Virus record (IMG/VR): IMGVR_UViG_3300042451_001241
Location: 27,802 to 91,801 of that record
Origin: a virus
Strand: one strand, 5' to 3'
DNA length: 64,000 nt
The position numbers and the translations under genes are program-made. Below the pieces are notes generated by a model that saw only the letters and a program-made list of their open reading frames with translations, ran no database searches and was not told the origin of the DNA. Shown one piece after another: positions 10,260 to 63,801 of the stretch (position 1 is its first letter; each line of letters opens with the position of its first letter).

Positions 10260-11726
10260 ATGTCAATTAATAATTCTTACTTTAGTAAAAATAATACATT
10301 AATATCAAATAGTTTTACTAATACAGGTAGAAACCCTGTCACCGAACTATTTTTTGGAACACCTATTTCGACTCAGTATCCTACTGGTTTTAGTAGATTC
10401 ATCTTTAATTTAGATTTAACTTTATTAAAAAATAAAGTAATTGACGGAACTATTTCAAATGATTGTGTTAATAATATGAAACACATTTTAAGAATGACTA
10501 ATACATCAACATTTGATTTAGAATTCTTAAATACCTCAACTTCGCAAGGAAGGAAAAGAGCAACCTCGTTTGATTTAGAATTATTTAGAATACCTTTTAT
10601 TGATTACAACCCTGACACACCCCAAATTTGGGATGAGGGTGTTGGGTATGATTTCGCCGATTTACAATACACAATTTCCGATTCGGATAAAAATTTTTCC
10701 GATAGACCGTCAAATTGGTATCAAACGACAACTATTGGAGTTTGGGATGAACCTGGATTATATAACAATAATAACGAAGGGTTTTATCCTTATAGCGCGT
10801 TAACAAAAATTGCAGAGCAACATTTTGAATTTGGTAATGAAAATATTGAATTTGATATGACAAATGAAATCAATCAGGTTCTTGATGGTACATTAGATAA
10901 TGTTTCAGGTTGGGTAATTGCTTTTAAACCTCAATTAGAAAATTTATCAGGATTAAGTGAATCTTACGAAGTTCAATTTTTTACAAGACATACACAAACA
11001 TTTTACGAACCTTTTCTTGAAACAATTTATAACGATTTAATCGATGATGACAGAAATCTTTTTACTTTAGGTAAAGTAAATAAATTATATCTATATGTTT
11101 ACGATAATGGAATTCCTGTTAATTTGGATTATACTCCCGAAGTTAACATACTGGATAATTCAGGTGAACCTATTGCGGGTTTAACAGGTTTAACAAGTTG
11201 TAGGAGAACAAAAGGTGTTTATGAAGTTACAATACCACCATTATTAGGTTATAAAACTCCTTGCACATTTACAGATAAATGGACTAATATAACATTAAAT
11301 GGTTTTTCTTTACCGGATATTTTTAACGAATTTACATTATTACCATTGAAAAGTTCATTACAGATTGGAACTAATTCAGTAGAACCAAAACTTTATGGAT
11401 TTGATTTTTATGGTATTAAACAAGACGAGAAAATTTTCAATACCGATATTAGAAAAGTTGGTGTTATAATTAAACAGGCCTACACAACAAACAAATTATT
11501 AAATAAAGTTCATGCCGAATATAGAATTTATGTTAGAGAAGGTCAAACGGAAGTTCAAGTTCAAGATTGGACTCAAATAAATAGAACTCCAAACGAGTAT
11601 TATTTTATCTTTGACACTAGGGACAAAATTCCAAACGAATATTATATTGATATTAAAGTGGAAAGTTCGGGTGAAATAAGTATCTATAAAAAACAAATAA
11701 AATTTCAAATAGTTAACTATAAATAA
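10260..11726 (+). CDS. Beta-rich virion protein with DNRLRE-like domain
   Basis: 488 residues, beta-rich and poor in charge clusters. Residues about 190-265 (IEFDMTNEINQVLDG, SGWVIAFKP, VQFFTRHTQTFYEPFLET) resemble the DNRLRE/carbohydrate-binding fold: Asp-Thr start, GW-hI strand, and R...PxLE end. The remainder looks like Ig-like modules (DYTPEVNILDNSGEPIAGL). Likely a tail or fibre-attachment protein. Followed immediately (1-base overlap) by a small protein and then the fibre gene. Confidence 0.55.
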   Translation: MSINNSYFSKNNTLISNSFTNTGRNPVTELFFGTPISTQYPTGFSRFIFNLDLTLLKNKVIDGTISNDCVNNMKHILRMTNTSTFDLEFLNTSTSQGRKRATSFDLELFRIPFIDYNPDTPQIWDEGVGYDFADLQYTISDSDKNFSDRPSNWYQTTTIGVWDEPGLYNNNNEGFYPYSALTKIAEQHFEFGNENIEFDMTNEINQVLDGTLDNVSGWVIAFKPQLENLSGLSESYEVQFFTRHTQTFYEPFLETIYNDLIDDDRNLFTLGKVNKLYLYVYDNGIPVNLDYTPEVNILDNSGEPIAGLTGLTSCRRTKGVYEVTIPPLLGYKTPCTFTDKWTNITLNGFSLPDIFNEFTLLPLKSSLQIGTNSVEPKLYGFDFYGIKQDEKIFNTDIRKVGVIIKQAYTTNKLLNKVHAEYRIYVREGQTEVQVQDWTQINRTPNEYYFIFDTRDKIPNEYYIDIKVESSGEISIYKKQIKFQIVNYK

Positions 11727-39312: not shown

Positions 39313-42300
39313 TTATCCTATTATAACCACTCTAACATTTTCACCAGGTGATGTTGAAAATACGACATCAACTGAATTTGTTTGTCTATTTGTCACTCTC
39401 GCATTTGTTAAATCACCAGTTGTTACCAACCATAATGAAACTTGAATATCGGTTGTACCCAAACTATGTGTTATTGTATATGTTCCACCTGATGGACTTG
39501 TTAAAGTTTCAGAATATTTTTTTACCGACCCTGTTAACCCACTAACTGGTGACCAAGTTACATTACCCGTACCATCTGAGTCAGTTAATACGTAACCAGC
39601 GGTTGACGCTCCCGATGTTACTTGTAGATTTGTTGTTATTGTTTTTCCAGAAACATTAACTATTCCGTTTGACCCAGTACCACCAACAAATAATAAATTA
39701 CGTCTGTTTAAATTATCGTCACCATTACCAACAATAAACGAACCTTCAGTTGTTGCGGTTAAATTAAATTTACCCGATACGTGTTGGTAGTCTCCTAATG
39801 CAATTGTACCCACACCTTCAGAGTGAGAATAGATACCTAATGTGGTTGTTTGATATCCTTCCGAGTGAGACCCTTCACCAATCGAGGTTGTTTCATTACC
39901 TTCCGTATGAGAATAATCACCTACAGCGTCCGTATAAATACCTTCTGAATGAGAACCTTCTCCGTTAGAAAATGTAAATTGCCCTTCAGCGTGAGAATTT
40001 GACCCTCCAGCAATTGTTTCATAACCTTCAGAATGGGAAGAATCACCTATTGTAGTGGTCTTAATTCCTTCAGAATGAGAATAATTAGAAGATAGTCTTT
40101 CTCCATTAAACGGTACTCTATTACTTTCATGAAATACATATGAAATAGCTGGTAATGATGTGGTGGATGTCCTTATCTCAAACTTAGAAGTACCGGAATA
40201 AAAAGTGGTTCCAGTTATAGTCACTTTCATCCATTTACTAATATATGTTGGAAATTCTGGGATTGTCTTAACAAATAAACTCCCAAAACCATATATTTCA
40301 TTACTTAAATCTACGTTAGTATTAATTAATATTGTAGTATTATTAGCACTAAAAACAGAAAACACGAATACACCAGACGTTGTATCCCTCCCTTCAGAAT
40401 GTGAACCATCACCGACCGAGTATGTAAATTCCCCCTCAGAATGAGACCCTTGTCCAATAGAGAATGTTCCACTACCTTCAGAGTGTGAATAACCACCTAT
40501 AGATTGGGTTCCAAACCCTTCGGAATGGTGAGCTATTTCACCGCCAGATATATTTACCCATTTACTAGTACCACCAGCAATTGTTTCATAACCTTCAGCG
40601 TGAGACGCGTTAGAAAAGGCGTTAGTATAATACCCCTCAACGTGAGAATTTTCACCAACCGCGTTAGTATTATTACCTTCCGAGTGAGTAGCCGAACCTA
40701 TCGACTTGGTAAAGATACCCTCTGAGTGAGACCTAAAACCACCTAAAACAATGTTTGCATTTTGGTCGTTTAACTTATCTATGGACGAGATTATAGGGTT
40801 AGAATAATTTATTGATTTATATGTTGTTATTATTGTTTGTCCACTACTAAATGTTAAATTTTTAATTAATATTGGTTGTGAGTTGGCATATAAACCATTT
40901 GTTGAAATCACCAAATACTGGTTAGTGGTAAATGCACTGGTAACATTTCCATAAGACGGAGATAATTTAAAAACTCCACCTGAAGTATCACCAGAAACTT
41001 GAAATCCTCTAAAAGATGTTGTAGTGCCAAATCCTTCAGCGTGAGACGCTTCACCATTAGCTGTTGTACCACTACCTTCAGCGTGTGACGCATATCCACT
41101 CGCTGTTGTACCATCACCACCAGCATGACTAGCTTCACCACTAGCTGTTGTATTTCTACCTTCAGCGTGTGAATTGTTTCCTGATGCTGTTGTACCACCA
41201 CCTTCAGCGTGTGAATAGTTTCCTGATGCTGTTGTTGTATTACCTTCAGCGTGTGAATTGTTTCCACTTGCTGTTGTACTTTCACCTTCAGCGTGTGAAG
41301 CATATCCTGATGCTGTTGTACTATCACCTTCAGTATGCGAAGCTTCTCCAGATGCTGTTGTATATCTACCTTCAGCATGACTAGTTTCACCAATAGCTTT
41401 AGTTCCAAGTCCTTCAGAATGACTATAATTACCACTAGATATGGTTTCACAACCTTCAGCGTGAGACCCATCACCATTTGTGATTGTTTGGACACCTTCA
41501 GCGTGATTTGAATAACCAAGTGTCATGGTACCACTACCTTCAGCGTGTGATTGACCACCAATCGGATAATTAGCTAATTCACTAAAATAGTTATATTTAC
41601 CAACAATAGCAGGTACATAAGTATTGAATCCGGTGTCATTTAATGTTATTATTGTATTTACGCCATTAAATGTGATAGCACTATATCCATAAAACAATTG
41701 ACCGTAAGGTAACAACACTTCATTATAACCATTTAATATTTCACCAACAACATTACCAAGCCATGGACTTAAAGTGATAACACCGTTAACAACACTATCA
41801 ACACTAAACCCCATAATACCAGCCTTACTTTCAACACCTTCAGCGTGACTATATTCTCCATTTGCGACTGAAAACCCACCCTCCGCGTGACTGCCGAACC
41901 CACCTGATATTGTTCCACGTCCTTCAGCGTGAGATGCTTCACCACTAGCTGCAGTTCCAGAACCTTCAGCATGTGAATGATTACCAAACGCGGAAACACC
42001 ATCCCCAAACGCGAAAGATGTTATTCCTGTTGATTGAGAACCGACCGATTGTACCGAATCGTGAATTGTTATTGGTGAACAACCGTATACGTTTGATACC
42101 CATAAATCTGTTATGCAATCACCAGAAGTGTTACCTGTAAAAGATGGTAAATTATAATATGTGTCTGCCGAAATACTCGTCGCACTTAATCCCCCATTTA
42201 TAGTTAATCCTGTAAAAGTATTTAATGTAACACCACTACTTTGACCATTACTTTGTGATAATGTTATTGTGTTTGCATCATCATATGTAAAACCTGTAAC

Positions 42301-42666
42301 ATAGGTATCGGTAAACCCTGTAATTGTTATTGGAGATCCGCTACTACTATCTAAAGTTAATGTTTCCGTATTTTTATCGAAAGTACCGCCTGTTATAAAG
42401 ATATCTCCAGGTAAACCTAAATAAGTTGTTGCAGATAAAGTATTCGTAATAACATTATTTAATATTGTATTTCCTGAAACATTTAAATCTCCACTAACTG
42501 ATAAATTTGTAAAAGTATATGAAGAAAGTGAATCAAAAACTTGACCTATAGTCGCTTTATATGATGAACCTGCAGGATTTTGTGATTGGTCACTTGTTAT
42601 AACTATATGAATTAAATCATCTAATGTTACTCCTGAAGCTTGAATTCTACTTGTTAATATTGCCAT
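39313..42666 (-). CDS. Giant tail fibre with SHAEG...ASG head repeats
   Basis: 1117 residues. After an N-terminal attachment-like part (RIQASGVTLDDLIHIVITSD, FTNLSVSGDLNVSGN), dozens of units SHAEGxxTTASGxx follow with a 14-residue period (42 bp). This is the left-handed beta-roll repeat of YadA/Hia-type trimeric adhesin heads. Non-repeat islands of 40-90 residues interrupt the array. The C-terminus (TYTITHSLGTTDIQVSLWLV, NVRVVIIG) is a small beta tip typical of phage fibre ends. The related fibre at 61303 shares the repeat and the CxTDLWVSN/YGCSPITI-type segment. Confidence 0.8.
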   Translation of the reverse strand: MAILTSRIQASGVTLDDLIHIVITSDQSQNPAGSSYKATIGQVFDSLSSYTFTNLSVSGDLNVSGNTILNNVITNTLSATTYLGLPGDIFITGGTFDKNTETLTLDSSSGSPITITGFTDTYVTGFTYDDANTITLSQSNGQSSGVTLNTFTGLTINGGLSATSISADTYYNLPSFTGNTSGDCITDLWVSNVYGCSPITIHDSVQSVGSQSTGITSFAFGDGVSAFGNHSHAEGSGTAASGEASHAEGRGTISGGFGSHAEGGFSVANGEYSHAEGVESKAGIMGFSVDSVVNGVITLSPWLGNVVGEILNGYNEVLLPYGQLFYGYSAITFNGVNTIITLNDTGFNTYVPAIVGKYNYFSELANYPIGGQSHAEGSGTMTLGYSNHAEGVQTITNGDGSHAEGCETISSGNYSHSEGLGTKAIGETSHAEGRYTTASGEASHTEGDSTTASGYASHAEGESTTASGNNSHAEGNTTTASGNYSHAEGGGTTASGNNSHAEGRNTTASGEASHAGGDGTTASGYASHAEGSGTTANGEASHAEGFGTTTSFRGFQVSGDTSGGVFKLSPSYGNVTSAFTTNQYLVISTNGLYANSQPILIKNLTFSSGQTIITTYKSINYSNPIISSIDKLNDQNANIVLGGFRSHSEGIFTKSIGSATHSEGNNTNAVGENSHVEGYYTNAFSNASHAEGYETIAGGTSKWVNISGGEIAHHSEGFGTQSIGGYSHSEGSGTFSIGQGSHSEGEFTYSVGDGSHSEGRDTTSGVFVFSVFSANNTTILINTNVDLSNEIYGFGSLFVKTIPEFPTYISKWMKVTITGTTFYSGTSKFEIRTSTTSLPAISYVFHESNRVPFNGERLSSNYSHSEGIKTTTIGDSSHSEGYETIAGGSNSHAEGQFTFSNGEGSHSEGIYTDAVGDYSHTEGNETTSIGEGSHSEGYQTTTLGIYSHSEGVGTIALGDYQHVSGKFNLTATTEGSFIVGNGDDNLNRRNLLFVGGTGSNGIVNVSGKTITTNLQVTSGASTAGYVLTDSDGTGNVTWSPVSGLTGSVKKYSETLTSPSGGTYTITHSLGTTDIQVSLWLVTTGDLTNARVTNRQTNSVDVVFSTSPGENVRVVIIG
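41030..41560 (-). repeat. In-frame 42-bp tandem repeats in the fibre gene
   Basis: The most regular part of the SHAEG array: successive 42-bp units encoding SHAEGxxTTASGxx with third-position variation. Coding repeats like this can expand or contract by recombination and change fibre length. Confidence 0.8.
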
Positions 42667-52409: not shown

Positions 52410-54440
52410 ATGATTGAATCTGCGGAAAATAGTGGTAAGAATAAAGGTAAAGGTGAAGGTACTTCTAGCACACCTGTATTAGATAACTTTAGTAGGGATT
52501 TAATAAAATTAGCGGAAGAAGGTAAATTAGACCCTGTTATTGGTAGGGAAAGAGAGATTAATAGAATTGCTCAAATCCTATCAAGAAGAAAGAAAAATAA
52601 CCCAATTATTATTGGTGAGCCAGGTTGTGGTAAAACCGCTATAATTGAAGGGTTAGCGATTAAAATCCAAAATGGAGATTGTCCTAGAAACCTAATGGAT
52701 AAAAAAATTGTTTCATTGGATATGACATCAATTGTTGCGGGGACAAAATATAGAGGTCAGTTTGAAGAAAGGATGAAAGTGATTATTGAAGAACTTCAGG
52801 CGAATCCTAACATTATAGTTTTCATTGATGAGATACATACAATTGTTGGGGCGGGAAATACATCAGGTTCATTAGACGCTTCAAACATATTTAAACCCGC
52901 ATTAGCAAGAGGAGAAATACAATGTGTTGGTGCAACTACTCTTGATGAATACAGAAAGAATTTTGAAAAAGATGGTGCTTTGGAAAGAAGATTCCAAAAA
53001 GTAATTGTTGACGCAGCGACTAAAGAAGAGACATTACAAATCTTACAAAATGCTAAAGAAAAATATGAATCTTACCATAATGTTTACTATACTGATGAAA
53101 TATTAAAATTATGTGTGGAATTGGCGGAAAGATATATTACAGATAGAGAATTTCCTGATAAGGCGTTCGATATTATTGATGAAGTTGGTGCGAGAAGTCA
53201 GGTAGATATTAAATTACCTGAAATTATTGAGAAGTTAAAATTGGAGGCTCAAGACGTTAAACTTGAAAAATTGGATGTTGTTAAAAAACAAAATTATGAA
53301 TTGGCCGCATCTTTAAGAGATAAAGAAAGAAAGATTTTAGATAAATTAGAGGCGGAGAAAAAGAAGTTTGAAACAGAGTTACAGATTCAGAAAAAAGAAG
53401 TGACTGATGATTTGGTTTATGACGTGGTTTCAAATATGACTAAAATACCTATCACTAAATTAAACTCAGATGAGACAAAAAATTTAATTAGTTTGGCGGA
53501 TAATATTAATAGTAAAGTTATTGGTCAGTCTGAAGCGGTTTTAAAAATTGCAAAATCTATCAGAAGAAATAGATTAGGTATTAGAGAACCAAATAAACCA
53601 ATCGGGTCATTTATATTCTTGGGATCAACAGGTGTAGGTAAAACTCATTTAGCAAAACAACTGGCCAAAGAAATTTTTGGTAGTGAAGAAAACTTAATTA
53701 GGGTTGATATGAGTGAATATCAAGAAAAACACACCATAACAAGATTAATCGGAGCACCTCCTTCTTATGTTGGGTATGAAGATGGTGGACAATTAACGGA
53801 AATGGTTAAAAATAAACCTTATTCAGTTATTCTTTTCGATGAGGTTGAGAAGGCCCACAAAGATATTTTCTCAGTATTACTACAATTATTGGATGATGGT
53901 CATATTACAGATAGTCTTGGTAGAAAAATTAACTTTAAAAATTGTTTGATTATTATGACATCAAACTTGGGGGTTAAAAAACTACAGGATTTCGGAACAG
54001 GGGTAGGGTTTAAATCTTCTACATCAACATATGTTCAAGAAGAACAGAAAAAAGACATTCTTAAAAAAGAATTACAAAAGTTTTTCTCTCCTGAATTTTT
54101 AAATCGTATTGATGAAATAATTGTGTTTAATCAATTAAATAAAGAGGATATTGGTAAGATTGTTGATATTGAAATTAAAAAACTAATATCAAGATTATCT
54201 AATTTAAAATACAAATTCTCATATGATAAATCATTGGTAGATTTAATTTCTGAAGTTGGTTTTGATGAGTTGTATGGGGCAAGACCATTAAAAAGAGCTT
54301 TACAAGATAAAGTAGAGGACTATATCTCGGAAGAAGTATTAAAAGGTGAAATTTCTGAAAATAAAGAGTATGAAATTTATGTTGACGAGAAAGAGGTTAA
54401 GATAAAAGAGAAAAAGAAGAGAAAAAAGAAAGGGGATTAA
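52410..54440 (+). CDS. clpC: ClpC/ClpA-like double AAA+ unfoldase lacking the N-domain
   Basis: 676 residues. The usual ~150-residue N-domain is missing; after a Lys/Gly-rich 20-residue start the D1 module begins (NFSRDLIKLAEEGKLDPVIG). D1: Walker A GEPGCGKTA (69-77), Walker B VFIDEIH. A short UVR-like M region (KLDVVKKQNYELAASLRDKE) precedes D2: GSTGVGKTH, ILFDEVEKAH, MTSNLG. GTGVGFKSST carries the VGF tripeptide at the place of the ClpP-docking loop of ClpC. It should therefore feed host ClpP. It lies beside an UVR adaptor candidate and a tmRNA/SmpB pair. Confidence 0.88.
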   Translation: MIESAENSGKNKGKGEGTSSTPVLDNFSRDLIKLAEEGKLDPVIGREREINRIAQILSRRKKNNPIIIGEPGCGKTAIIEGLAIKIQNGDCPRNLMDKKIVSLDMTSIVAGTKYRGQFEERMKVIIEELQANPNIIVFIDEIHTIVGAGNTSGSLDASNIFKPALARGEIQCVGATTLDEYRKNFEKDGALERRFQKVIVDAATKEETLQILQNAKEKYESYHNVYYTDEILKLCVELAERYITDREFPDKAFDIIDEVGARSQVDIKLPEIIEKLKLEAQDVKLEKLDVVKKQNYELAASLRDKERKILDKLEAEKKKFETELQIQKKEVTDDLVYDVVSNMTKIPITKLNSDETKNLISLADNINSKVIGQSEAVLKIAKSIRRNRLGIREPNKPIGSFIFLGSTGVGKTHLAKQLAKEIFGSEENLIRVDMSEYQEKHTITRLIGAPPSYVGYEDGGQLTEMVKNKPYSVILFDEVEKAHKDIFSVLLQLLDDGHITDSLGRKINFKNCLIIMTSNLGVKKLQDFGTGVGFKSSTSTYVQEEQKKDILKKELQKFFSPEFLNRIDEIIVFNQLNKEDIGKIVDIEIKKLISRLSNLKYKFSYDKSLVDLISEVGFDELYGARPLKRALQDKVEDYISEEVLKGEISENKEYEIYVDEKEVKIKEKKKRKKKGD

Positions 54441-54454
54441 AATCCCCTTTTTTT
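54429..54454. terminator. Bidirectional terminator between clp and peptidase genes
   Basis: Perfect 10-bp stem AAAGGGGATT / AATCCCCTTT with a 2-nt loop and T runs on both strands; includes the clp stop codon and precedes the convergent peptidase stop. Confidence 0.85.
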
Positions 54455-55265
54455 ATAACCAACCTTTTTGATTTGATATTTTTTTGTATTTTTTATAACC
54501 CAATTTTTCTATCATTTTTTTACCGGTGTCAATCCCGTTATAAACATCTTCAATCACAACATACTCATTTTTTCTATGATAGTTATAATAACCAATAGCA
54601 AAATTAATACAAGAGAAATCGAATTTAGTTTTTAACGCGTAAACATCTGTATATGGATGAGAATAATACTTATTTCTATTATCAAAACTTTCAGTTAATA
54701 TCTCATCACAAGATTTAAAGAATTCGTCTTCTCTATCAAACAATTGAACCCCCATACAATATTCCGTAACCATTGAATTTCCTGGTGCATCAAACTGAAT
54801 ACAATAACCAACATCTTTAAAGAAATTTGGGTCGGCCTTTCTTGAACCGTGACATCCTGTTTCCTCAGACACAAAGAACGCCGATTTCAAATTTGGAAGT
54901 TCTTTTAATAGTTCCAAACAAGCGTAAACCCCGCACTTATCATCTCCACCAATTCCTGTTTGTTCTCCATCATCATTTATCGCGGTTAAAGATTCCTTTA
55001 AAACCTTTTGTTCATTTGGTAACATCTTCTCAATAATGTTAATAGTATCTATGTCGTGTACGGTGTCAGTATGAGCAACCACACAAGGATAATAATCAAC
55101 ATTATCCGTTTTCTTTGTTGCGTAAATGTTATTATTAGAATCTTTATAAAATGGTATATTGTTGGTGGTTAACCAATTGACAATAAAATCAACCATTTTG
55201 CCTTCGTTATAGGTTACCGTTGGTATTGATAGGACTTCTTTAAGTAGGTTATAATCGCGTTTCAT
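54453..55265 (-). CDS. M20/M42-like zinc aminopeptidase
   Basis: 270 residues, short for the family. Ligand motifs are present in order: AHTDTVHD (metal His/Asp), IGGDDKCG (bridging Asp), SEETGCHGS (catalytic Glu pair), QFDAPG (Asp) and NYHRKNEYV (final His). Resembles peptidase T/M20-M42 enzymes without the dimerisation domain. Cytoplasmic, would trim peptides to amino acids. The -7 box TACATTTG lies 4 nt from the ATG, and it is convergent with the clp gene, so it could finish peptides released by Clp proteolysis (inference). Confidence 0.78.
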   Translation of the reverse strand: MKRDYNLLKEVLSIPTVTYNEGKMVDFIVNWLTTNNIPFYKDSNNNIYATKKTDNVDYYPCVVAHTDTVHDIDTINIIEKMLPNEQKVLKESLTAINDDGEQTGIGGDDKCGVYACLELLKELPNLKSAFFVSEETGCHGSRKADPNFFKDVGYCIQFDAPGNSMVTEYCMGVQLFDREDEFFKSCDEILTESFDNRNKYYSHPYTDVYALKTKFDFSCINFAIGYYNYHRKNEYVVIEDVYNGIDTGKKMIEKLGYKKYKKISNQKGWL

Positions 55266-55268
55266 ACA

Positions 55269-56729
55269 TCAAATGTAACGCTTTTTTCCTTTGTTAACAA
55301 CTTTTCTCTCAAAAAGTTCTCTATTATGTAAAAAATCAATAAAAGATTCGTAATTATAAGACCTAGTTTCCATAGGTTTGAATTGGGCGGGAGTATAATG
55401 AACTATCACAACTTGTTTTTCAGGGTCATACTTATAAATCCTAAATTTTCTTTCTTTAGTATTTGGGTCGTGAGGTAATTGATACCATTCTCCTAATTTA
55501 TATTTATTAAAAACATTATCTTTAAAATTAATGAATTCTTGACTTGTAAATTTTTCATCTGTCGATATTTCCTCTAATATGTCGTCAAGTTTTGAAGAGA
55601 CATAATTATTAAATCTTTTAGAAAAAATTTCATTGTGTTGGTCATTACAATAAGTTTCATAAGCGTATTCATAATAATTAGGGTCTAAATGAATACTTTC
55701 TTTATTTATTTTTTGAAGTAACTCATATACAGACATATGTTTTGCATCATATAATTCAAATAAGGTTGTAAGTATTTTAACGCTAGTTCTATATGACCAA
55801 AAACAATTATTATCTTTTACAAAGATTCCGTAATTTGAAAATACATCACAAAATTCTCCGTTAATTAGGTCAACGGTTGTATCGTATTTACATTCATTAA
55901 TTAATTCATTATATTCTGAAATAATATTATCCACTTCACTTGAAAAATATTTATCTAAATCTCTTGCAATAATTTCACTATGTTCTTCTAAATTTTCCAT
56001 AGTAATTCTTTCCGCAGTATTTAAATAACTATAAATTTCAATAATCTTTTGTTTATTTTCCGCTGTAAAATGATATAACATATAACCATCTTTCCATTCA
56101 TAGTGAGAAGTATCCCAAGGCTCAAATTCATAACCACTTCTTCCATTACCAATAGTGGTTAAAAACCAAACCTCATCGTCATTATCTGTAAAAATTTTAA
56201 AAAAATCACTTACCTCATCAAATCTTAATATAATTTGACTAGCACCCGGCTTTGTAGGACTATATTTAATATCATAAATTAATTGATCAAAATCAGAAAT
56301 ATCAATATCATTTACAATATCAGAACCCTTTTTTATATTTAATAAAATATTATAAATAGAATTACTCATTAGTTCCAAATACTTGTCGTAAATTGAGGGA
56401 AAATTACTTTTAATATATTCGTCAGGATTTTCAATATCATCATTTTCTTTATCAACTATACTAAAACCATTATAATTAACATCTTTACCAGTTTTTTTTC
56501 TTAGTAATGTAATACAAAATTTTTCAGAGGTAGGATTTTTGGTTTTATCAATTATAAAATATATATCATAATATTGAAATTTTTTAGAATAAGCGTCTTT
56601 AATGAATTTAGGTCCAAAATATGATACTGAATCATAACCATTCGATTTAAGAAAGGTTAATTTTTCATTATCTTCAATTATCTCACTCTGTTTATAAGCT
56701 ACTCTTCTTAAATTACCGTCAGATTCCAT
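55269..56729 (-). CDS. Large hypothetical protein
   Basis: 486 residues, acidic, alpha/beta with many aromatic residues (SVSYFGPKFIKDAYSKKFQY, HYEWKDGYMLYHFTAENKQK, FWSYRTSVKILTTLFELYDA). No motif or family recognised. Starts after a late-box variant (AAGTATTTATTA, minus strand, near 56745-56756) and ends against the peptidase promoter. Adjacent on the other side is the tmRNA promoter. Confidence 0.55.
   Translation of the reverse strand: MESDGNLRRVAYKQSEIIEDNEKLTFLKSNGYDSVSYFGPKFIKDAYSKKFQYYDIYFIIDKTKNPTSEKFCITLLRKKTGKDVNYNGFSIVDKENDDIENPDEYIKSNFPSIYDKYLELMSNSIYNILLNIKKGSDIVNDIDISDFDQLIYDIKYSPTKPGASQIILRFDEVSDFFKIFTDNDDEVWFLTTIGNGRSGYEFEPWDTSHYEWKDGYMLYHFTAENKQKIIEIYSYLNTAERITMENLEEHSEIIARDLDKYFSSEVDNIISEYNELINECKYDTTVDLINGEFCDVFSNYGIFVKDNNCFWSYRTSVKILTTLFELYDAKHMSVYELLQKINKESIHLDPNYYEYAYETYCNDQHNEIFSKRFNNYVSSKLDDILEEISTDEKFTSQEFINFKDNVFNKYKLGEWYQLPHDPNTKERKFRIYKYDPEKQVVIVHYTPAQFKPMETRSYNYESFIDFLHNRELFERKVVNKGKKRYI
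55270..55277 (-). promoter_or_regulatory. Leaderless-type promoter -7 box
   Basis: Minus-strand TACATTTG, spacer ATGT, then the ATG of the peptidase at 55265; the box overlaps the end of the upstream gene. Confidence 0.6.
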
Positions 56730-56788: not shown

Positions 56789-56796
56789 TATATTTG
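56789..56796 (+). promoter_or_regulatory. Bacteroidota-type -7 box of the tmRNA gene
   Basis: TATATTTG in the context TTTGTATATTTGTATTG, the same 15-base context as the leaderless protein genes; about 26 nt before the mature tmRNA 5' end. Confidence 0.75.
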
Positions 56797-56822: not shown

Positions 56823-57206
56823 GGGGGTAAAAATGGTATTGACTGGCATTGTTAATTGTTCGGGGCACGCAGTGAGAAGATTCCTATCACTTAAATCTAC
56901 GGATTCAAATTTTAGACGGCAACGTACTAGACAAAATGGCGACTATCGGTTTAATCCGTGAAAACGCTGAAGTTGTAGCTTAATAGTTAAGAAACAACAA
57001 CGGGTCGGTGAGTGTATAACCCAGGAACAGAAGCTCTTTAGGGGTTGAAAAATGACTGAACCCTAAATCGAGTCGTCCATTGGTTGTTAGTTTACGATGG
57101 TGAAGAACAAACTAAATATTTTGGAATGTTAGAAAACATTATCCTAAGCGTGTAGTCCTTAATAGTTAAGGTGAACAACACGGCGGTTCGACCCCGCCTA
57201 CCTCCA
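56823..57206 (+). ncRNA. ssrA: tmRNA (transfer-messenger RNA)
   Basis: Acceptor stem 5' GGGGGTA (56823-56829) pairs with TACCTCC (57199-57205), discriminator A 57206; CCA is not encoded. T arm GGCGG-TTCGACC-CCGCC (57182-57198). The 5' domain contains TGGTATTGACTGGCATT-type D-arm sequence. The tag frame most likely resumes at GGC 56918, after TAGAC as in other tmRNAs, and stops at TAA 56981 followed by TAG. The tag would start GNVLDKM and end ENAEVVA. Length 384 nt is normal. SmpB is encoded 90 nt away, convergently. Confidence 0.92.
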
Positions 57207-57210
57207 CTTT

Positions 57211-57240
57211 AAACCCTTACCTCCACAGGTAGGGGTTTTT
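57211..57240 (+). terminator. Intrinsic terminator of the tmRNA
   Basis: 12-bp stem AAACCCTTACCT / AGGTAGGGGTTT (one G/T pair) with a short CCAC loop and a T run, four bases after the tmRNA end. Confidence 0.9.
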
Positions 57241-57259
57241 TATTTGACGTTATAATAAA

Positions 57260-57296: not shown

Positions 57297-57731
57297 TTAA
57301 ATATTTCTTTTCATATCCCGATCAATGTCTCGATTTTTAATTGATTCTCTTTTATCGTAAAGTTTCTTACCTCGACCTAATACAATTTCTACTTTAATCA
57401 AACCTCTGTCATTAATGAAAATTCTATACGGAATAATCGCCAATCCTTTTATTAATTGATTCTCCAATTTTCTTAGTTCTTTCTTCTTGAGTAATAGTTT
57501 TCTATCCCTATTGGTTTCGTGGAAAGTTCCATACCCATAATCTGAAATAGTCATTCCTTTAACGAATAATTCACCATTACTAAAATAACAATAACTCTCT
57601 GAAATTGAGGCTTTATTTTCCCTAATAGATTTTACCTCAGACCCAATTAATTGAATTCCAGCAATTTCTGTTTGGATAAATTCGTATTCAAACTTTACTT
57701 TTTTATTAACAATATTAACCGAATGTTTCAT
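57297..57731 (-). CDS. smpB: SsrA-binding protein SmpB
   Basis: 144 residues, the normal length. Family signatures in order: KFEYEFIQTEIAGIQLIGSE-VKSIRENKA, SYCYFSNGELFVKGMTISDY, RDRKLLLKKKELRKLENQL, KGLAIIPYRIFINDRGLIKV and the C-terminal GRGKKLYDKRESIKNRD tail that enters the decoding centre. It binds the tmRNA tRNA-like domain and brings it to stalled ribosomes. The -7 box TATCTTTG is 4 nt from its ATG. The tmRNA gene is next door, facing it. Confidence 0.93.
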   Translation of the reverse strand: MKHSVNIVNKKVKFEYEFIQTEIAGIQLIGSEVKSIRENKASISESYCYFSNGELFVKGMTISDYGYGTFHETNRDRKLLLKKKELRKLENQLIKGLAIIPYRIFINDRGLIKVEIVLGRGKKLYDKRESIKNRDIDRDMKRNI

Positions 57732-58233: not shown

Positions 58234-58308
58234 TGGTAGCGAGCGATGGAATCGAACCATCCGTCTTTAGGTTATGAGCCTAACGAGTTACCATTTCTCC
58301 GGCTCGCA
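58234..58308 (-). tRNA. tRNA-Met (CAT), initiator-like
   Basis: 75 nt including encoded CCA. Acceptor TGCGAGC / GCTCGCT with an unpaired U1-U72, D arm GAG...CTC with A11-U24, anticodon stem TTAGG-CTCATAA-CCTAA with anticodon CAT, variable AGACG, T arm GATGG-TTCGATT-CCATC. An unpaired 1-72 end and A11-U24 are hallmarks of bacterial initiator tRNA. Of the three initiator G-C pairs in the anticodon stem, two are kept and the third is A-U. It is embedded in the giant RNA transcript, so it must be excised. Confidence 0.88.
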
Positions 58309-59166
58309 CTATAATTTAGGCTGAGATTACACCTATTTGTGAGAACCTTTACAAGTATTATTGTTTCCCTTGTTATCCACTCTCTTTTGAAGAGTATTTC
58401 TCAATGACGGTCTTTTAAGTTTACCACTCTTTGAGGTATCAATTACTCTCTCATTACTCAACTCTCTTCGAGGACGCCTCCCCAACACATTCTTGCGGAA
58501 TTAGAGGTTTTTGGTAAGAATACACTCAGACTTGGGGTCTTTGTGTGCAATGAACGGCTCATTACTATGTAGTCACCTTTCATTGATACCTGATAGACAC
58601 TTTTCCTTTGAACAAATTTTTAGTTTATTTAAGTACGTGTCGTGGATGTGTCGAAGTAGTGGTCTATCGTAAGCTCAGTCATCTTTTGAACAACCGAATA
58701 CTTGACTACTCCGTGAGATGTCCCCATCTCCATTTTTTAAGTTTACTTCATACCACAACCTTGGTTGATTGTTAGTAAGGATAGTAGCGACACCACTCGT
58801 TCTTTATCTTACCTTTCGGTTTTAAGTCCACTCTTAAATTGGAACCCGTAATTATATGATTAGATAATCACACTTCTTACTTGATTCCTATGGGTTATTC
58901 TTATTGTTCTTCCGAACTCAACCAAACAATCCACATTGCTTGGTCATTAAACCACTTTCCCTAAAGCGTCGCCCTCAGTACTAAAGGTCTAATGATATCC
59001 CACTTGTATACTCGAGCTCAGTTTCCCAAGCCGCAGAACCACTAACACAAGTGACCCCACTTTATCCTACTTTCGTAGTTTATTTAACGACCATATACGG
59101 CCGATTATCGTTTCTCGAGTTATCATCACTCCGAAGAGTTACTTTCACCCGATGGATAATTCACTA

Positions 59167-61302: not shown

Positions 61303-63801
61303 TTAAGGTCCAATTTTCGCCCAATCTGTTGAAGTATTTCCTGTATAACCCCACCAACCTTTTGATGTTATGTAAGCGCCAGTACCACCTGTAATATAAA
61401 CTATTAAACCCTCAACCGCAGATATCGATTCCGCGTCAGTCGCACTCATTCTTGGTGGTAAAAACCCTTGAGTTGTTGAGTCTATTTGTATTGCTGCTGA
61501 AGATACTATTCCTGTTGTTCCAACCCCTAATTGTCCTGTAATTGTAACCGCACTACTTGCTGCAAATAATAAATTACTTCTGTTTACATCACTAGTTCCG
61601 TTACCTATAATAAACGCACCGTCTGTAGTATCACCAGTTAAGTTATATAAACCTGAAACGTGTTGATAATTTCCATACGCAATTGTTCCCCTACCTTCTG
61701 TATGTGAAAATTCACCAATAGATTTTGTACTACTGCCTTCCGCATGAGAACCATAACCCAAAGAAACGCTACCTTCCCCCTCGGCGTGAGAAACATTACC
61801 TAAAGAGTAAGTGCCAGATCCTTCTGCGTGTGAATATTTTCCTGACGATTTTGTTTGGTCACCTTCCGCGTGAGAATAATCTCCAGGAATAAATAAATCA
61901 CCATTCCAATCTTTAATATCTATTGACGGATCACCGACATACCAAGTGTTTGTAGAATTTAAAGATGTGTTATATAGTTGTATTTGTGTAAATGTTCCAT
62001 TATAAGTTACCGCACTTATTTGTTCAGAATAAGTGTTATTAAAATCAATATTATACATATACAAATACTGACTTGGTTGGAAATCCGCAGTCGCGTTTCC
62101 GTAACTACTTGATAAACTTGCTAATCCTGCGGTAATTCCTGTGACTAAATAAGCATTTCTTAATCCTGTTAATGTGTCATATCCCTCTGAGTGAGAAAAG
62201 AATCCTAATGATGTTGTATTATCTCCTTCAGCATGTGACCCATATCCTGTTGATGTTGTACCACTACCTTCTGAATGTGAATAATAACCTACGGAATAGG
62301 TATTACTACCTTCAGAGTGAGAATACGAACTTTCATAAAAGGTATTATTTGGGTTATATAAATCTGTCAATTTTGTAATTGAAGTTAATTTATTTGATTG
62401 ACAAAATGGAGGAAGTTCTTCGGGTAGATCTAAATTAATTGTTGTTTTATCTGTTCCCGAATCATACGTTATGCTTAATATAGAGCAAAGTTTACCTTCA
62501 AGTAATACCTGTGGTTGCGTTAATATTGAAGTATAATCTCCATCTATAGTTGCAACAGAAGTACATTCATTAAATCGACAACTAATCCCAATATAACCAG
62601 AATAGGTACTATTACCTTCAGAGTGTGAGTATTTACCGTAAGATATTGTGTCAACCCCTTCAGCGTGGGAAGACGATCCTATTGAAGTAGTATAAAACCC
62701 TTCTGAATGAGAACTTGCTCCTGATGCGGTAGTATTATTACCTTCAGCGTGAGAGTATTCTTGTAAAGCTTTAGTTTGATATCCTTCTGAATGAGAACTT
62801 TCTCCTGATGCGGTAGTATTACTACCTTCAGAGTGAGAACCCACCCCTACTGATGTTGTAAGAAATCCTTCTGAATGTGAAAATATTCCATAACTTATTG
62901 TAGACGCTCCTTCCGAATGTGATCCAGTACCAAAAGAATTATTACCTACCGCCGACACAAATGGAGGTTTTCCAAAAACTCCACCTCCTTCAGAGTGAGA
63001 ATAATTACCAAGAGCTTTATTATAACCACCTTCAGAGTGAGAATAATTATTTGTATAAGTATTTGCTGATAAACTAAATAAATTATTTGTGTCGACAACA
63101 GAAAAAACACCCTCAAGATATAAAGTATTATCTAATAAATCAATTTGAAAATTTGGAGTTGTAAAACTTGTTGAGGTATATTGTTCTATAGCAACAATAC
63201 TTCCTAAACTATCTATAATATAAACATAACTACCCGTAAATTCTGTTGAGTAATTAGTCCCCCCTGTTAATATTATCACACCATTTTCAATAGTATTTGC
63301 CGAAACATATCCGAATGATCTTAAACCGGCAATTGTTTGATATCCTTCAGCATGAGAACTTTCACCTAAAGATTCTGTTTGATATCCTTCTGCGTGAGAA
63401 TAGTCACCTGAAGCCGTAACTCCATAACCAAAAGCAAAACTAAGAGTTCCTGAGGCCGTTGACCCATTTGATTGGACTTCATCCCATATTGTTATTGGAC
63501 TACATCCGTGAACGTTTGTCACATAAAAATCTAAAAAACAATTACCTGAAGAACTTCCAGGTAAATTATAATAAGTTGTTGCAGATATTGTATTAGCACT
63601 TAATCCTCCCGTAAAGTTAGTTGGTCCCGGTACGGTACCGCCCGTAAATGCAAAATAATTTTTAAGGTCAGTTAAGTAAGTGTTTTTTGTTACACCTGTA
63701 AAAGGAGAATCATTATGATTAACTATAACTAAAAGGTCTTGAATAGTATATCCCGTTGGTCCTACATACGGTAAATAACTAATTGGTATAGGTATTGGCA
63801 T
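61303..63801 (-). CDS. Tail fibre with SHAEG/SHSEG head repeats
   Basis: 832 residues. The N-terminus ISYLPYVGPTGYTIQDLLVI is the same attachment module as in the 11968 fibre. NVHGCSPITIWDEVQS then matches NVYGCSPITIHDSVQS in the 39313 fibre. Many YSHAEG/SHSEG...ASG repeats of 14 residues follow with three non-repeat inserts. The C-terminus (QIDSTTQGFLPPRMSATDAE, GLIVYITGGTGAYI, GWWGYTGNTSTDW) is a common Bacteroidota phage fibre end. Probable trimeric fibre. Confidence 0.8.
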   Translation of the reverse strand: MPIPIPISYLPYVGPTGYTIQDLLVIVNHNDSPFTGVTKNTYLTDLKNYFAFTGGTVPGPTNFTGGLSANTISATTYYNLPGSSSGNCFLDFYVTNVHGCSPITIWDEVQSNGSTASGTLSFAFGYGVTASGDYSHAEGYQTESLGESSHAEGYQTIAGLRSFGYVSANTIENGVIILTGGTNYSTEFTGSYVYIIDSLGSIVAIEQYTSTSFTTPNFQIDLLDNTLYLEGVFSVVDTNNLFSLSANTYTNNYSHSEGGYNKALGNYSHSEGGGVFGKPPFVSAVGNNSFGTGSHSEGASTISYGIFSHSEGFLTTSVGVGSHSEGSNTTASGESSHSEGYQTKALQEYSHAEGNNTTASGASSHSEGFYTTSIGSSSHAEGVDTISYGKYSHSEGNSTYSGYIGISCRFNECTSVATIDGDYTSILTQPQVLLEGKLCSILSITYDSGTDKTTINLDLPEELPPFCQSNKLTSITKLTDLYNPNNTFYESSYSHSEGSNTYSVGYYSHSEGSGTTSTGYGSHAEGDNTTSLGFFSHSEGYDTLTGLRNAYLVTGITAGLASLSSSYGNATADFQPSQYLYMYNIDFNNTYSEQISAVTYNGTFTQIQLYNTSLNSTNTWYVGDPSIDIKDWNGDLFIPGDYSHAEGDQTKSSGKYSHAEGSGTYSLGNVSHAEGEGSVSLGYGSHAEGSSTKSIGEFSHTEGRGTIAYGNYQHVSGLYNLTGDTTDGAFIIGNGTSDVNRSNLLFAASSAVTITGQLGVGTTGIVSSAAIQIDSTTQGFLPPRMSATDAESISAVEGLIVYITGGTGAYITSKGWWGYTGNTSTDWAKIGP

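Follow-up and report, generated by a model that had tools for sequence, protein, structure and literature searches.

The window analysed here, a stretch of 64,000 nucleotides, corresponds to positions 27802-91801 of an IMG/VR phage record (IMGVR_UViG_3300042451_001241) of 91,801 bases, itself partial, and it encodes T4-like head genes recognized by Pfam (Gp23, Gp20 and a T4-type terminase). It also carries a tmRNA gene, with genes for a ClpC-like unfoldase, a peptidase-like protein and a 486-aa protein on one side and smpB, which encodes the tmRNA partner protein, on the other (Table 1). The Rfam model RF00023 matches this tmRNA over its full length (model positions 1-374 of 374) at 65.3 bits, above the gathering cut-off of 47 (E 3e-23); the PK2-PK4 region falls within the alignment, with a posterior that is low in places. 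ARAGORN, which is in wide use as a tmRNA finder, reported no tmRNA in the window and overlooks this phage gene at 56823-57209. The hairpin around the stop codons resembles helix 5 of other tmRNAs. Directly 3' of the tmRNA, a terminator-like hairpin (57210-57242, plus strand; CCCTTACCTCCACAGGTAGGGG followed by T's) copies part of the tmRNA 3' end (TACCTCCAC). Elsewhere in the window, 39313-42666 and 61303-63801, both on the minus strand, encode very long proteins with many SHAEG/SHSEG repeats, which are like trimeric adhesin head repeats and possibly belong to tail fibres.

Table 1 Features of the phage tmRNA locus, in coordinates of the window
Feature	Position	Strand	Evidence and details
ClpC-like unfoldase (D1-M-D2, VGF ClpP-docking loop, N-terminal domain absent)	52410..54440	+	PDB, Pfam
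Peptidase-like protein (M20/M42 type)	54453..55265	-	PHROG 4191 'peptidase' 5.9e-42; weak Pfam M20/M42
486-aa protein, immediate tmRNA neighbour	55269..56729	-	In 48/55 clpC loci
Match to the Bacteroidota -7 promoter box TAnnTTTG	56789..56796	+	TATATTTG
tmRNA (ssrA)	56823..57209	+	Rfam RF00023
Acceptor stem	56823-56829/57199-57205	+	7/7 pairs, G3.U70 alanine identity pair
Pseudoknot PK1	56871..56906	+	AGUGA/UCACU (stem 1, 56871-56875/56887-56891) and GAUUCC/GGAUUC (stem 2, 56879-56884/56901-56906), one U-U mismatch
Tag frame	56918..56986	+	GGC resume codon 56918-56920; GNVLDKMATIGLIRENAEVVA, 21 codons (56918-56980), then TAA (56981-56983) and TAG (56984-56986)
Hairpin around the stop codons	56972..56998	+	GUUGU...ACAAC, inner CUUA/UAAG; sequence inspection
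T arm	57182-57198	+	TTCGA loop
SmpB	57297..57731	-	Pfam PF01668 1.9e-46

Conservation of the tmRNA and reading frame of the tag

CCA is not encoded in the window tmRNA. All seven acceptor pairs and G3.U70 are found in each of 46 relatives, for whose extraction a G start, at least 6/7 acceptor pairs and at least 4/5 T-stem pairs were demanded, G3.U70 being left free. PK1 is likewise present in 46/46, with compensatory changes in its stem (AGUCG/CGACU, AGGAG/CUCCU, CGGAG/CUCCG). The sequence TAnnTTTG, which is the -7 consensus of Bacteroidota (PMC7366714), occurs within 70 nt upstream of the phage tmRNA in 40 of the 46, compared with 10% in shuffled sequence, and because of this enrichment the enzyme that transcribes the tmRNA gene is probably an RNA polymerase of Bacteroidota type.

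The initial annotation had read a tag of about 21 residues from the GGC at 56918 up to tandem TAA-TAG stops, and had named beforehand a structure-based alignment as what might move the resume codon into another frame. Placement by structure leads to the same codon and the same frame. PK1 is separated from GGC by 11 nt (AAAUUUUAGAC), and an 11-nt spacer (AAAAAAUAGUC) also precedes the coding sequence of E. coli, where mutation of A86, at position -4, destroys activity (PMC2481249). Across the 46 relatives this gap measures 9-12 nt, and the base at -4 is A in the window and in every one of them. Furthermore, a close relative (L003) encodes the identical peptide with the synonymous change GUACUA to GUUUUA, and the pN/pS of frame 0 across the family is 0.47 for the 21-aa set and 0.39 for the 22-aa set, as against 0.75 and 0.99 (21-aa set) and 0.66 and 1.88 (22-aa set) in the other two frames. 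The synonymous changes in L003 and the constraint on frame 0 together exclude a chance origin of the tag frame, which is under purifying selection. Synonymous codons are used within the tags at L12 (TTA/CTT/CTA), R14 (CGT/AGA/CGC) and the last A (GCT/GCC/GCG), a pattern of codon change that preserves the peptide rather than the RNA. A shorter tag, resuming at 56933 after a second TAGAC at 56928, had also been proposed and does not hold up: that position is not conserved, the relatives having TTTTAAAC or TTTTGCT, its distance from PK1 would be 26 nt, and the preceding codons (GNVL) show conservation at the protein level.

A family of long phage tags

Searching IMG/VR with SmpB gave 12 relatives, ten of which have smpB beside a tmRNA. 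Nine of these tmRNAs were recognized by Rfam close to smpB and the tenth, that of L003, was read by eye (Rfam gives 61.5 bits in the whole record); the tags of all ten are of the same kind as the window tag. The tag, written as a degenerate DNA pattern, then retrieved from IMG/VR, after deduplication, at least 93 distinct tmRNA contexts with at least 44 tag peptides, and a looser motif, restricted to full-length tmRNAs of IMG/VR phages, at least 80 distinct sequences with at least 46 distinct tags. The initial motif allowed only M as residue 7 and overlooked the L-type members; nine Rfam tmRNAs near clpC that it had missed share the layout, which constitutes a partly independent check. A PDB sequence search with the tag gave no match, and no DNA-level relative of the tmRNA was found in the INPHARED phage set. 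In one relative (L188:10732-11333) a group I intron sits within the T-loop of the tmRNA (Intron_gpI in Rfam, 98 bits at 11080-11307), and the 3' exon continues after it as CGAATCCCTCCACCTCCACCA.

Among the matches listed, all family members have tags of 21 or 22 aa, of the form GN[VT][LF]xK[ML]xxxGLx[RK]...xVA. In 46 tags, G at position 1, K at 6, G at 11 and L at 12 are invariant, position 7 is M or L and position 14 is mostly R, a fixity that is owed partly to the search motif. The terminal residue is A in 45/46 and V occupies -2 in 28/46; none ends in LAA or MAA. The window tag ends VVA, and positions -2 to -4 vary across the family (VVA, TVA, VGA, VKA, VEA, VTI). The tags of L189 and L201 end in VTI and not in xVA (GNTFAKLAALGLTKEEAVVTI, GNTFAKLSALGLTREEAVVTI), which means that the terminal alanine is not absolute.

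The tags of Bacteroidota are different. In 13/13 Bacteroidota tmRNAs the tag has 9 aa and ends in A[LM]AA (e.g. GENNYALAA, GESNYALAA, GNTQYAMAA, GDNRFALAA), and 12/13 resume at Gly (GGC). Conservation is strongest at the C-terminus in these 13 host tags and inside the tag in the phages. The phage tag is thus non-standard, longer than and unlike those of Bacteroidota, as the initial annotation had maintained. The possibility it had named against itself, that the host has the same tag, finds no support in the 13 host tmRNAs, and in 395 genomes from the class of a Flavobacterium the phage motif occurs at chance level (7 matches versus 3 in the reversed control). In genome contigs the tag pattern matched at least 119 stretches, none of them in a tmRNA context among the matches listed. 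A host origin of the tag was discarded on these grounds.

The unfoldase gene and its neighbourhood

The clpC gene lies 2.4 kb upstream of the tmRNA, with the genes for the peptidase-like and the 486-aa proteins in between. The six best PDB matches of its product are all ClpC, the best being 6em9 (query 6-665 to chain 146-803, 1.8e-214), and its Pfam matches are AAA_2 and ClpB_D2-small. The D1-M-D2 architecture and the ClpP-docking loop are common to the phage protein and to this bacterial ClpC; the latter, however, has an N-terminal part of about 145 residues that the former lacks. No Pfam match to Clp_N was obtained in the phage ClpCs, which mostly have 39-45 residues before PVIGR. In bacterial ClpC, the N-domain binds adaptors. 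The ClpP loop, of the form [VIM]GF, is present in 67/67 phage ClpCs in which the loop is readable.

We also picked clpC loci from IMG/VR by ClpC similarity alone. Of those with at least 4 kb downstream, 52/54 have a tmRNA of the tag family downstream of clpC, at a median distance of 2.7 kb; L211, whose tag starts with D (DNTLSKMATLGLTREAVVVAA), is apparently a 53rd, and L144 is the remaining exception. The peptidase-like gene accompanies clpC in 55/55 loci. The 486-aa protein has no Pfam or PHROG match. On the other side of the tmRNA, near smpB, a GOLLD RNA (58318-58713, minus strand, 308 bits) abuts a tRNA-Met(CAT) gene (58237-58308, minus strand), and most of the SmpB relatives likewise have GOLLD close to smpB.

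Large relatives were searched for the remaining components of the pathway. G001 and G003 encode tmRNA, SmpB, ClpC and ClpP, and G004 encodes ClpC and ClpP, with SmpB not detected. ClpP was not detected in G005-G010, nor in the window's own partial record, and consequently host ClpP would be needed here unless a clpP gene lies in the stretch of genome that the record lacks. The assumption that a phage tmRNA is always accompanied by SmpB proved false, as several relatives are without it. The Lak megaphages MK250029 and MK250024, whose host belongs to Bacteroidota, resemble G001 and G003 in uniting tmRNA, SmpB and ClpP in one phage, but they have ClpX in place of ClpC, no relative of the latter having been found in them, and tags of 10 aa (DDEIDFRMAA and DDEIEFRMAA). 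The 636-kb phage LR756504 encodes ClpC, a ClpX-like protein and ClpP, with the tag DNVNSFEQSILNELFAPVEMAVAA. A perfect match between tag type and unfoldase type is broken by G002, which has a long tag (GEKNVWDVINSFGTPSSKVSYTVAA) and in which no ClpC relative was detected. Tag type tends to go with unfoldase type in these few lineages, imperfectly. Among the Lak phages, the ClpX gene of Prevotella phage Lak-C1 (MK250029; L390:821-2437, minus strand) is apparently split by an intein-like insert, and that of Lak-B5 (L389) is uninterrupted, with a product of 418 aa. In the huge phages LR745206 and LR756502 (W04 and W06), which encode SmpB, ClpC and ClpP, the tmRNA model matched tRNA-sized fragments only, and a tmRNA of divergent or permuted form may have escaped detection.

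Distances between tags, compared over 57 loci, follow those between ClpCs (correlation 0.48) more closely than those between peptidases (0.25), with a bootstrap interval of 0.07-0.41 for the difference. Linked genes share ancestry, and long conserved proteins keep time better than short ones. For the tmRNA body the tendency is alike but weaker (0.41 versus 0.29), and the tag-specific excess over it is small (0.11, interval 0.00-0.23). The co-variation of tag and ClpC is suggestive only.

Discussion

The phage tmRNA very probably works and, together with phage or host SmpB, adds A-GNVLDKMATIGLIRENAEVVA to unfinished proteins, its alanine-charged tRNA-like end entering stalled ribosomes and the tag being appended to the unfinished chain. 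We propose that the tag would then serve as a degron, read mainly by the phage ClpC devoid of N-domain, which would dock via its VGF loop on ClpP, that of the phage where present and otherwise that of the host, while the adjacent peptidase may aid the recycling of peptides. Specificity would reside mainly in the internal K-[ML]-x3-G-L-x-[RK], with a smaller share for the C-terminal alanine. As a benefit, ribosomes would be rescued during infection and the phage would choose the protease for the tagged chains. In our estimation, the whole account, including the reading of the tag as a degron for phage ClpC, stands evenly poised between right and wrong. On its side we count the identity and frame of the tmRNA, the tag family and the selection on it, the unlikeness of the tag to host tags, the linkage to clpC, the ClpP loop, the gene sets of G001 and G003, the contrast with the Lak phages and the co-variation; against it we count that ClpP is missing from the window record and from G005-G010 and SmpB from several relatives, as well as G002, the small excess of the co-variation over that of the tmRNA body, and the absent adaptor-binding N-domain.

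Several other readings were weighed against this one. The silence of ARAGORN and a CCA that is not encoded might raise the suspicion of a non-functional gene, decayed or carried as a passenger, yet the full-length Rfam match, the fixed G3.U70, the compensatory changes in PK1, the selection on the tag, the promoter box and the co-encoded SmpB all speak against it; this reading is already contradicted by the comparative data, and we give it hardly any credence. More serious, though still rather unlikely in our view, is a tag that host ClpXP reads as an ordinary degron, with xVA acting like LVA. On this view the longer N-terminal part would do something else or play no part in proteolysis, and the link to ClpC would come from the common ancestry of neighbouring genes. 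The frequent alanine at the end and valine at -2 would fit it, and so would E. coli, in which LVA-ended tags are well degraded and grouped with LAA among the less stable (PMC9097571). It accounts poorly, however, for a tag that varies at -2 to -4 and is fixed internally, the opposite of what the 13 host tags show. The same E. coli data bear on the initial annotation, which had taken the changed end as something that could redirect tagged proteins from host ClpXP to the phage Clp unfoldase or else stabilise them. Since LVA ends belong to the less stable group, the VVA end by itself is weak evidence for redirection, and stabilisation by the changed end is not supported; to judge from the comparison of tags, the internal K[ML]...GL.[RK] is the more unusual feature. 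Redirection to the phage Clp is nevertheless the best reading, because an unfoldase gene lies nearby, its product has the ClpP loop, and the gene is conserved together with the tmRNA.

Two further readings concern what becomes of the tagged chain, and we consider both improbable. The tag might be non-degradative, so that ribosomes are freed and the product is spared from host ClpXP or marked for another purpose; every member of the family departs from A[LM]AA and the conserved internal sequence is long, as such a role would allow, but the hydrophobic end with its terminal A has been kept, and the tmRNA has an unfoldase gene and a peptidase gene as conserved neighbours. To a similarly small degree we credit the view that the internal motif is read by another host protease (host ClpC or Lon), or by an adaptor of phage or host, and not by phage ClpC directly. 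In its favour, Lon is the protease that reads the tag of Mollicutes (PMC9382460), the phage ClpC is without an N-domain, and the 486-aa neighbour matches no Pfam or PHROG family. Against this stand the conserved linkage with phage ClpC and a co-variation that is better than with other neighbours. In its broadest form, reading by phage ClpC would amount to an orthogonal trans-translation pathway in a widespread lineage of Bacteroidota-type phages, with an internal-motif tag, a dedicated ClpC, ClpP and the peptidase, in which host ClpXP is bypassed and tag and unfoldase co-evolve; we advance this generalization tentatively, as a possibility that we hold to be less probable than the account of the tag itself.

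Why phages carry tmRNA is a question to which a selected, host-unlike tag travelling with an unfoldase gene brings one directly testable answer, namely that the phage tag hands stalled proteins to a phage protease. If true, this would offer a new degron with its own unfoldase, usable as an orthogonal degradation tool, and dozens of natural pairs in which to compare tag and protease.

Phage-encoded ssrA is known from the mycobacteriophage Bxz1 group, Bacillus phage G, phage Melnitz and huge phages, the last of which also carry SmpB (PMC4131195, PMC9004378, PMC7162821), and the latest tmRNA database, which covers RefSeq viruses, gives 10 aa as the commonest tag length (PMC11915505). In the literature searched, we found no report of a conserved phage tag family, of the internal motif or of a link to an N-domain-less phage ClpC, and within that literature these would be what is new relative to the known phage tmRNAs. 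With Bacteroidota ssrA, the phage tmRNA shares the one-piece form, the Gly resume codon, the same upstream spacing region and a similar -7 promoter type; it differs in its tag, which has 21-22 aa, keeps K[ML]...GL fixed in its interior and finishes in xVA, where the host tag has 9 aa and finishes in A[LM]AA. The closest precedent for a protease-switching tag is that of Mollicutes (Mesoplasma), whose ssrA tag is read by Lon (PMC9382460, PMC9097571). Like the phage tag, it is long and has a changed end, and a different protease handles it; its sequence, which ends NYAFA, is unrelated, and the candidate reader in the phage is the phage ClpC. Should this candidate prove right, viruses would have an equivalent of the Mollicute switch from tag to Lon.
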